35,769 nucleotides of DNA from Anaerolineales bacterium (GTDB lineage Bacteria > Chloroflexota > Anaerolineae > Anaerolineales > DRKV01): positions 1-35,769 of the forward strand of contig JANTFR010000006.1 of assembly GCA_024763355.1 (NCBI GenBank). Reading direction: 5' to 3'. The notes under the pieces were generated by a model. The model had not been told where the DNA came from, ran no database searches, and saw nothing but the letters and a program-made list of their open reading frames with translations. Below, in pieces: positions 32,980 through 35,769 of this stretch; position 1 is the first letter of the stretch; each line of letters begins with the position of its first letter. Both the position numbers and the translations under genes were made by a program.

Positions 32980-35769
32980 ATGCCCAAACGACCTTACCCT
33001 CTCGTACTCCTTATTTTCCTGCTGACCGGTTTCGCGCTGGCGCTCACCGGCATCCTGCCCGCCCTGCCGGCGTTCGCCGCCTCCACCGGACAGACCACCT
33101 GCGAGCAAGCCGTTATCCACTACCACCGCCGCAACGCCGACTACGACGGCTGGGGACTGCACGTGTGGGGCGCCACGCCCCTGGAGGGCAAGGTCACCTG
33201 GCAGGAGCCGCTCGAACCCGCCGGGCAAGACGATTTCGGCATCTATTGGGTCATCCCCCTCGCCGAGAACGCCGAGAGCGTCAACTACATCGTCCACAAG
33301 GGCGATACCAAAGACCCCGGCCCCGACCAGACGTTGACCTTTGCCGAGGCAGGCTGCGAAATCTACCTCACCCAGGGACGCGCCGACCAGTATCCCAGCG
33401 CCGAGGCCGCCCTGGAAGCGATTGCCGTCTCCCTCCAGCCCGCCCCGCCCCCCGACGATACCCACGTGGTCATCCACTACCGCCGCACCGCCGAAGACTA
33501 CGACGGCTTCGGACTGCACGTCTGGGGGCCGACGCCCCTGGAGGGCGTGGTCACCTGGGGCAGTCCGCTGCCTCCCGCCGGGCAGGATGCGTACGGCATC
33601 TACTGGGTGGTGGAGGTCAACGCGGAGGCCGACCACCTGAACTACATCGTCCACCGGGGGGACGAAAAAGACCCCGGCCCCGACCAAACCATGAACTTCG
33701 CCGAAACGGGACGCCAAATCTACCTCATCCAGGGCAGCGGGGAGCAATTCCCCGACCCCGAAAGCGCCAAACAGGCGTTGCTCGTCGCCGGCGTGGGCGA
33801 CATCAAAAACAAGGCCCAGGCCCACTGGCTGACGCGCCAGTACATCGCCTGGCCGGTTCCCTACGGCAAGAAGGCCCTCTTCACCCTGTTCCACGCCCCC
33901 GAAGGCGGCATCGAAGTCACCCAACAAGGCCTGCGGGGTGGGGAGCAAATCCAACTGGAATTCGTGAGCGACAACCTGCCCAAAGACCTGGCCGCAAAGT
34001 GGCCCTACCTGGCGACTGCCGTGCTGCTCAAAGTGCCCGATAGCGCCCTCCCGCAGGTGCCCGAAATCCTGAAAGGGCAAATTGCCGTCCAGGTGGTAGC
34101 CCCCGACGGGCAGGTGCTGGGCGCGACGGGGTTGCAAATCCCCGGCGTGCTGGATGACCTGTACGCCAACGACGAACCTTTGGGCCTCGTCTGGAATGGC
34201 GACACGCCCACCCTGCGGGTGTGGGCACCCACCGCAAAGCGCGTGCGGCTAATTCTCACCCTCACCCCCGGCCCCTCTCCCTTAGGGAGAGGGGAGACAG
34301 GGGTGAGGGAATGGGCAATGACCCCCGACCCTGCCACCGGCATCTGGAGCATCACCGGCGACCCGTCCTGGAAAGGCAGGTACTACCGCTATGAAGTCTC
34401 CGTCTTCGTGCGGCAAGAGGGAGAAGTGGTCACTTCACAGGTCACCGACCCCTATGCCGTCGGGCTGAGCATGAACTCCACCTGGAGCCAGATTGTGAAC
34501 CTGGACGACCCGGCCCTCATGCCCCCCGACTGGCAGGCCGACGCCCTGCCGCCCTTGCCCCCGGAAGACATCGTGCTCTACGAACTGCACATCCGCGATT
34601 TCAGCGCCCGTGACCCCAGCGTGCCCCCCGAACTACGCGGCACCTACCTGGCCTTCACCCTGCCCGACAGTTACGGCGTGCGCCACCTCAAGCGCCTGGC
34701 CGCCGCGGGCGTGACCCACATCCACCTGCTGCCGGCCTTCGACATCGCCACCATCAACGAAGACCGCAGCACCTGGCCTGAAACGGATTTCACCGCCCTG
34801 GCCGCCCTGCCGCCCGATAGCGAGCAGCAGCAGGCCTTCGTCGCCCAAACGCGCGGCGCAGACGGCTACAACTGGGGCTACGACCCCTACCACTACAACG
34901 CCCCCGAAGGCAGTTACAGCACCAACCCCGAAGGCACAACCCGCATCCTGGAATTCCGCCAGATGATAGCCGCCCTGCACCAGATGGGCTTGCGCGTCGT
35001 CATGGACGTGGTCTACAACCACACCAACGCCAGCGGCCTGAGCGAAAAATCCGTCCTGGATAAAATCGTCCCCGGCTACTACCACCGCCTGGATGCCAAC
35101 GGCAACGTCGCCAGCAGCACCTGCTGCGCCAACACCGCCACCGAACACGCCATGATGGGCAAATTGATGCGCGATTCCGTCCTGCTGTGGAGCCGCGCCT
35201 ACCACGTGGACGGCTTCCGCTTCGACCTGATGGGACACCACATGAAAGCCGACATGCTGGCCGTCCAGGCCGCGCTGTCCTCCCCCCCTCTCCCTTTGGG
35301 AGAGGGGCCGGGGGTGGGGGTCCCCTACCTCTACGGCGAAGGCTGGGATTTCGGCGAGGTCGCCCACAACGCCCGCGGCGTGAACGCCACCCAGGCCAAC
35401 ATGGCCGGGACGGGCATCGGCACCTTCAACGACCGTCTGCGCGACGCGGCGCGGGGCGGCAACCCCTTCCAGCCGCCGCAAGTCCAGGGCTTCGTCACCG
35501 GCCTGTACACCACCCCCAACGAAGCCAGCGACTTGCCCGAAAACAGCCAGAAAGCCGTGCTGCTCGACCTGCAAGACCAGATTCGCGTCTCCCTGGCGGG
35601 CAACCTGGCTGATTACCCCCTCATCAATGCCGAGGGCAATCCGGTGACCGGCGCGCAAATCAACTACAACGGCCAGCCCGCAGGCTATACGCAAGACCCG
35701 CAGGAAAACGTCGTCTACGTCTCCGCCCACGACAACGAGACCCTCTTCGACGCCATCCAGTACAAGGCC
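32980..35769 (+). CDS. pulA: Secreted type I pullulanase (GH13_14), 3' truncated
   Basis: An open frame of 930 codons runs off the window end. A signal peptide of about 33 residues is followed by two pullulanase-associated (CBM41/PUD) domains with the repeated motif DYDGxGLHVWG, then a CBM48-like domain and the GH13 barrel. YNWGYDP (from Tyr630), region I DVVYNHT, nucleophile Asp749 in DGFRFDLMG, acid/base Glu787 in YLYGEGWDF and HDNET (His917, Asp918) are all present. It cleaves alpha-1,6 branch links in pullulan and starch outside the cell. The ATG has GGAG upstream. Two palindromic repeats are translated within it: near residues 427-444 and 769-781. The frame stays open through both. Confidence 0.94.
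34259..34309. repeat. Nested palindromic repeat inside the pullulanase gene (copy 1)
   Basis: Outer arms CCCTCACCCC (34259-34268) and GGGGTGAGGG (34300-34309) enclose an 11-bp inner stem CCCCTCTCCCT (34272-34282) with 34284-34294. It is read in frame and encodes [15 protein letters not shown]. Related GC-rich palindromes translated as such Pro/Gly-rich peptides are, to my memory, common in many genomes. Confidence 0.9.
35285..35320. repeat. Inverted-orientation copy of the same repeat (copy 2)
   Basis: CCCCTCTCCC (35285-35294) and GGGAGAGGGG (35298-35307) form the stem, followed by CCGGGGGTGGGGGT. The reverse complement shares ACCCCCGGCCCCTCTCCC with copy 1. It encodes [13 protein letters not shown] just before the catalytic YLYGEGW motif. 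Confidence 0.88.

Follow-up and report, generated by a model that had tools for sequence, protein, structure and literature searches.

How does a nested palindrome come to be read in frame inside a pullulanase gene, and by what route could it have arrived there? The question is raised by the window, a stretch of 35,769 nucleotides from an Anaerolineales genome that ends within such a gene. The answer that we consider probable is that the gene holds in-frame solo copies of a mobile family made of palindrome plus nuclease (TM/PIT, a G/C-rich intrastrand triplex motif, and DUF559), which have been kept as protein loops.

Two palindromes in the pullulanase frame

The host gene encodes a pullulanase-type alpha-1,6-glucosidase (32941-35769, plus strand; TIGR02103, E 2.1e-254), an open frame whose 3' part is lost at the contig end. 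Pfam recognises two PUD domains, Pullulanase_N2, CBM48 and, as the start of the catalytic domain, alpha-amylase. An AlphaFold model of a fragment of the protein reached a mean pLDDT of 84.8 and matches the fold of barley limit dextrinase (TM-score 0.93). Rfam gave no match anywhere in the window. Two palindromes lie in frame within this ORF.

Element 1 (34259-34309; minus strand in TM orientation) is a nested TM palindrome of 51 bp with both termini, CCCTCACCCC...GGGGTGAGGG. A mechanical palindrome search located its arms at 34259-34279 and 34289-34309, and the DNA folds into two nested 10-bp stems. The outer stem pairs CCCTCACCCC (34259-34268, plus strand) with GGGGTGAGGG (34300-34309, plus strand), the latter being the third-strand segment of the TM family (Table 1 of PMC4666352), and encloses an inner hairpin, CCCCTCTCCC-TTA-GGGAGAGGGG, at 34272-34294 (plus strand), for which an exact pattern match was obtained at 34272-34293. 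At -21.9 kcal/mol the fold has a z-score of -5.19, and none of 200 shuffles was as good. The element is translated as a 16-residue peptide inside the CBM48 domain (PF02922, residues 413-506; 34177-34458, plus strand), and the ORF from 32941 to 35769 runs through it uninterrupted; as placed in the window, three of the six frames are open across the element, the used frame among them. An earlier sequence-only reading of this DNA had described a nested palindrome of 51 bp, an open frame through it and a position in a CBM48-like region, and all three descriptions held. In the model the peptide is a loop of low confidence (pLDDT 56, fragment residues 41-50) that connects two strands and is flanked by blocks with pLDDT values of at least 93.

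Element 2, which that reading had passed over, lies at 35285-35321 (plus strand). It is a TM copy reading CCCCTCTCCC-TTT-GGGAGAGGGG-CC-GGGGGTGGGGG, with an exact hairpin at 35285-35306, and is translated in frame as a 12-residue peptide directly before the strand with the catalytic YGEGW (GEGW) motif. The corresponding loop has a pLDDT of 47 within the otherwise confident fold of the fragment model. It is known as a TM copy by its sequence (E 1.7e-8), its fold energy being unremarkable against shuffles (z -0.43).

To compare the two loop sites among pullulanases, we used an alignment of 45 rows. Of the 44 homologues, 43 have a loop of 13-15 aa at site 1 and one has a loop of 6 aa, against 21 aa in the window; at site 2 the loop measures 15 aa in 41 of the 45 rows, 16 aa in the window and 19 aa in a sister species of the same genus (G002). 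The sequence-only reading had proposed an insert where other pullulanases have a short loop. The longer loop at site 1 agrees with this, and a clean insertion does not, because the net gain of 6-8 aa is smaller than the 17 codons of element 1; either the loop was expanded and replaced, or the element was trimmed later. The sister species, 86-87% identical at the amino acid level, carries other palindromes of different sequence at both loop sites (a small one at site 1), and its loop peptide is unlike that of the window. The homologues are without the window's peptide, and none was found to encode the same peptide by unrelated DNA.

The palindrome family and its in-frame copies

Read on the opposite strand, element 1 gives CCCTCTCCC-TAA-GGGAGAGGGGCCGGGGGTGAGGG, which Table 1 of Holder et al, 2015 (PMC4666352) lists as the TM motif. 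In both elements the hairpin CCCTCTCCC-N-GGGAGAGGG is succeeded by G(G)GGTGAGGG as third segment, and as judged by sequence both belong to the TM/PIT family. The source genome (285 contigs, 2.76 Mb in all) contains 34 matches in 24 clusters, counted from searches and retrieved stretches; other genomic copies, whose absence would have spoken against the sequence-only reading, are thus plentiful. Among 121 relatives the element is present in 57, a count that varies with the sequence threshold and refers mostly to metagenome assemblies. Two source-genome contigs end in palindrome arrays (L138 2479-2676 and L142 2062-2125), so that the count probably misses copies where the assembly breaks off.

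These copies share with TM/PIT not only the sequence but also the anatomy (CCCTCTCCC-loop-GGGAGAGGG-CCG-GGGGTGAGGG), the multiplicity and the frequent arrangement as inverted pairs (PMC4666352). High copy numbers have been reported before, as in Enterobacter sp. 638 with 100 TM copies (PMC2869309). In E. coli K-12, by contrast, TM copies have been described as intergenic throughout and as unconnected with mobile elements (PMC4666352), whereas many of those described here are translated and a nuclease-bearing form exists. The intergenic location, a descriptive and not a defining trait of the family, therefore does not extend to the present genomes.

In the retrieved source-genome stretches, at least nine of the 24 TM clusters lie in frame within Pfam-confirmed genes: two in the pullulanase and one each in ValS, LigA, MetH, a DUF2298 protein, the linker of a YqeC-MobA fusion, and transaldolase and phosphoglucose isomerase (PGI), the last two in one fused frame. 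Relatives have in-frame copies in ValS, UvrA, an FGE-sulfatase, a subtilase and an Eco57I-type enzyme. Host Pfam domains flank the copies on both sides in ValS, UvrA, transaldolase, FGE-sulfatase and subtilase, and near-identical copies also occur between genes and, within other genes, in several reading frames. LigA is the cleanest insertion comparison. One in-frame palindrome is common to the source species and G002, and outgroups have neither the palindrome nor an extra insert; the source species additionally carries ~129 bp inserted in frame and absent from G002, its congener, with ~93% amino acid identity on either side. In DUF2298 membrane proteins of one locus (L174 1983-2193, 7730-7966 and 8506-8707), up to five palindrome units form in-frame tandem arrays with a 42-bp period.

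A likeness to Rickettsia palindromic elements (RPE) had been suggested for element 1. In-frame insertion into many unrelated protein genes, as in RPE, is indeed what we find, and in both cases repeated palindromes are retained as protein segments; the phylum is a different one, and for RPE the open-access literature yielded no nuclease-bearing form. The element works like RPE, the comparison being one of behaviour and not of descent. A second comparison is offered by the GTAG/CGTC REPs (PMC3733652), which are likewise short palindromes in paired units inside genes, uvrA and other repair genes in particular; unlike these, the copies described here have no GTAG/CGTC tag, and no RAYT was found beside them. 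A search of the open-access literature for peptide strings typical of the element returned no relevant paper.

The palindrome-nuclease cassette

The sequence-only reading contained no nuclease-bearing form of the element. In MetH of the source genome, one TM copy adjoins a DUF559 domain, the palindrome being recognisable to the left of the domain but not to the right. A family search detected DUF559 in 60 of the 121 genomes, frequently as part of very long ORFs. Inspection, mainly of the top-scoring loci, identified in-frame cassettes in which DUF559 is enclosed by two TM copies. They recur at the same sites in ValS (G009, G092) and MetH (G000, G026, G038, G050, G079) and are found further in UvrA (six genomes, one family), PIG-L, PyrF and DUF1156 methylases. 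A cyanobacterial cassette resides in a plasmid-borne methylase of Pseudanabaena; the plasmid is complete, and the whole methylase is annotated as one CDS. The outer ends of the cassettes are mostly CCCTCACCC...GGGTGAGGG, the termini of the 51-mer in the window; in the UvrA group the palindrome is related to that of the window but distinct from it.

In ValS, the linker that precedes the anticodon-binding domain is occupied by a solo TM in six genomes and by the cassette in two; the others read have neither of these there. In related species (loci L227-L296) other, unrelated short repeats occupy this linker in frame, e.g. SPQSLVTSPQSLV, TTYQSTNYQFTN and NQRPTTDDRRP, so that it is a general insertion-tolerant site. 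Inheritance of the ValS insert from a single ancestor was considered and set aside, as many unrelated short repeats arise at that linker.

The structural model of the DUF559 nuclease (pLDDT 90.6; invariant residues D56, E67, D69 and H73) has structural matches in NGO0050 and in the homing endonuclease I-Bth0305I (3r3p, E 2e-4). Model and alignment together display the features of the EDxHD group, a Vsr-like fold in which acidic residues and a histidine are conserved, and one paper has already assigned a DUF559 gene to the homing endonucleases of the EDxHD family (PMC9403480). With inteins and homing-endonuclease genes (EDxHD, I-Bth0305I) the cassettes have in common that a nuclease of the same fold lies in frame in conserved genes. 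They differ in their palindromic flanks and in having no splicing domain: a Pfam scan of ten cassette proteins yielded DUF559 and host domains only and no intein splicing (Hint) domain, and the insert seemingly stays in the mature protein. In an exploratory tree the nucleases in ValS, MetH and PIG-L are closely related and one from PyrF is nearby; such close kinship in unrelated host genes argues for movement between genes. In a Pseudanabaena DISARM DNA methyltransferase (L206 2501-3041), palindromes lie ~430 bp apart, and a search with one seed found no DUF559 between them.

Association of nuclease and palindrome, and routes of spread

Over the 121 genomes, TM and DUF559 are both present in 44 and both absent from 48, with TM only in 13 and DUF559 only in 16 (odds ratio 10, p 7e-9, a figure that ignores phylogeny and genome completeness). 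TM lies within 300 bp of 11 of 30 DUF559 loci (on both sides in six), compared to none of 30 Y1_Tnp loci (p 1.6e-4). Repeats shared between the two flanks (score >40) were detected at 13 of 26 DUF559 loci of Anaerolineae vs two of 118 control windows, and in other phyla (plasmid collection) at 11 of 20 loci vs three of 107 controls; at about half of the DUF559 genes no repeat common to both flanks could be detected. In other lineages DUF559 has its own lineage-specific palindromes in inverted arrangement, e.g. inverted repeats of 56 bp in Deinococcus proteolyticus and of 114 bp in Sinorhizobium meliloti, and CCCCCCAGAATTGGGGGGCTAGGGGGG in Pseudanabaena. The Deinococcus genes (L301, L306, L311) have long inverted flanking repeats with triplex-type palindromes, and in a pair of Deinococcus species the DUF559 gene is present in one and absent from the other between paaD and paaZ. 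Neither there nor in pullulanase, ValS or the E. coli sapF-fabI interval did we find a clean, unoccupied site with target duplication, because the flanks are too diverged, the loops have been replaced or, in E. coli, the eef operon (PMC12817139) takes the place of ycjD in the other allele.

We propose that TM copies entered surface loops of the pullulanase and were retained as disordered Pro/Gly/Ser-rich peptide loops. The larger form consists of an EDxHD/Vsr-type nuclease (DUF559, YcjD family) between palindromes with the outward termini CCCTCACCCC...GGGGTGAGGG; likewise inserted in frame in housekeeping genes, it is translated as a domain on flexible linkers encoded by the palindromes. Most likely, the nuclease would introduce a double-strand break, and repair with a palindrome or cassette copy as template would place the element, copying presumably running in this direction and allowing both forms to spread. 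Solo copies may be non-autonomous forms or deletion products. In-frame insertions in flexible loops might survive because the palindrome encodes Pro/Gly/Ser-rich linker peptides.

The best of the alternatives, which we nevertheless regard as unlikely, is that the palindromes arise and spread alone, by template switching, replication slippage or hairpin break repair, and that DUF559 is a passenger homing into them, the palindrome being its target and not its product. Such a passenger would sit within TM doublets, as DUF559 does, and would be far outnumbered by TM, as in the source genome with 34 matches and a single DUF559 gene and in the 13 of 57 TM-bearing genomes that have no DUF559 match; E. 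coli TM loci are unstable, replication stalling having been proposed (PMC4666352), and the replaced pullulanase loops with their small net change in length also fit. The strong co-occurrence of TM and DUF559 speaks against a mere passenger, as do the inverted palindromes that other lineages' DUF559 genes have of their own, which are expected if element and enzyme evolve jointly. Mobilisation of the palindromes by a RAYT (Y1 transposase), on the model of the REP elements of Pseudomonas and E. coli, seems highly improbable: Y1_Tnp is present in 83 of the 121 genomes and co-occurs with TM, but more weakly than DUF559 (odds ratio 5.4), its loci are without nearby TM copies, the matches in the source genome are marginal (24 and 20.8 bits), and the ends of the element are CCCTCACC / GGTGAGGG in place of the GTAG or CGTC tag. 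Coincidence, be it a coding loop palindromic by chance or selection on the loop peptide, could appeal to the high G+C content and to element 2, which alone folds no better than shuffles, but is dismissed on account of the copy number, with near-identical copies between genes, in other genes and in several frames, of the exceptional fold of element 1 and of the differing peptide in the sister species.

Joint spread of palindrome and nuclease, our preferred reading, may tentatively be extended to a widespread bacterial two-part selfish system, in which an EDxHD/DUF559 nuclease, together with the palindrome that matches it, also moves in frame into essential genes and linkers carry the nuclease or the bare palindrome in the mature enzyme without splicing, YcjD and TM in E. 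coli being an example. Triplex-type palindromes populate hundreds of bacterial genomes, and the survey of 2015 linked them to no mobile element; DUF559 is a candidate enzyme for their spread. If this holds true, the in-frame nuclease cassettes in ValS, MetH and UvrA are mobile elements tolerated in essential proteins without splicing, and selfish DNA has a route to create new protein loops and linkers.

The link between DUF559 and TM is directly testable in E. coli, whose DUF559 member, ycjD, lies between sapF and fabI; at least 80% of this stretch is present in 3334 of 5426 genomes. YcjD has been predicted to be a PD-(D/E)XK nuclease (PMC1189080). Like the cassettes it has a DUF559 domain and adjoining TM copies; unlike them it is a free-standing gene with intergenic palindromes. 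The ycjD-fabI spacer (L317 1846-2213) contains several TM copies, one of them listed as number 9 by Holder et al, and another copy overlaps the 3' end of ycjD.
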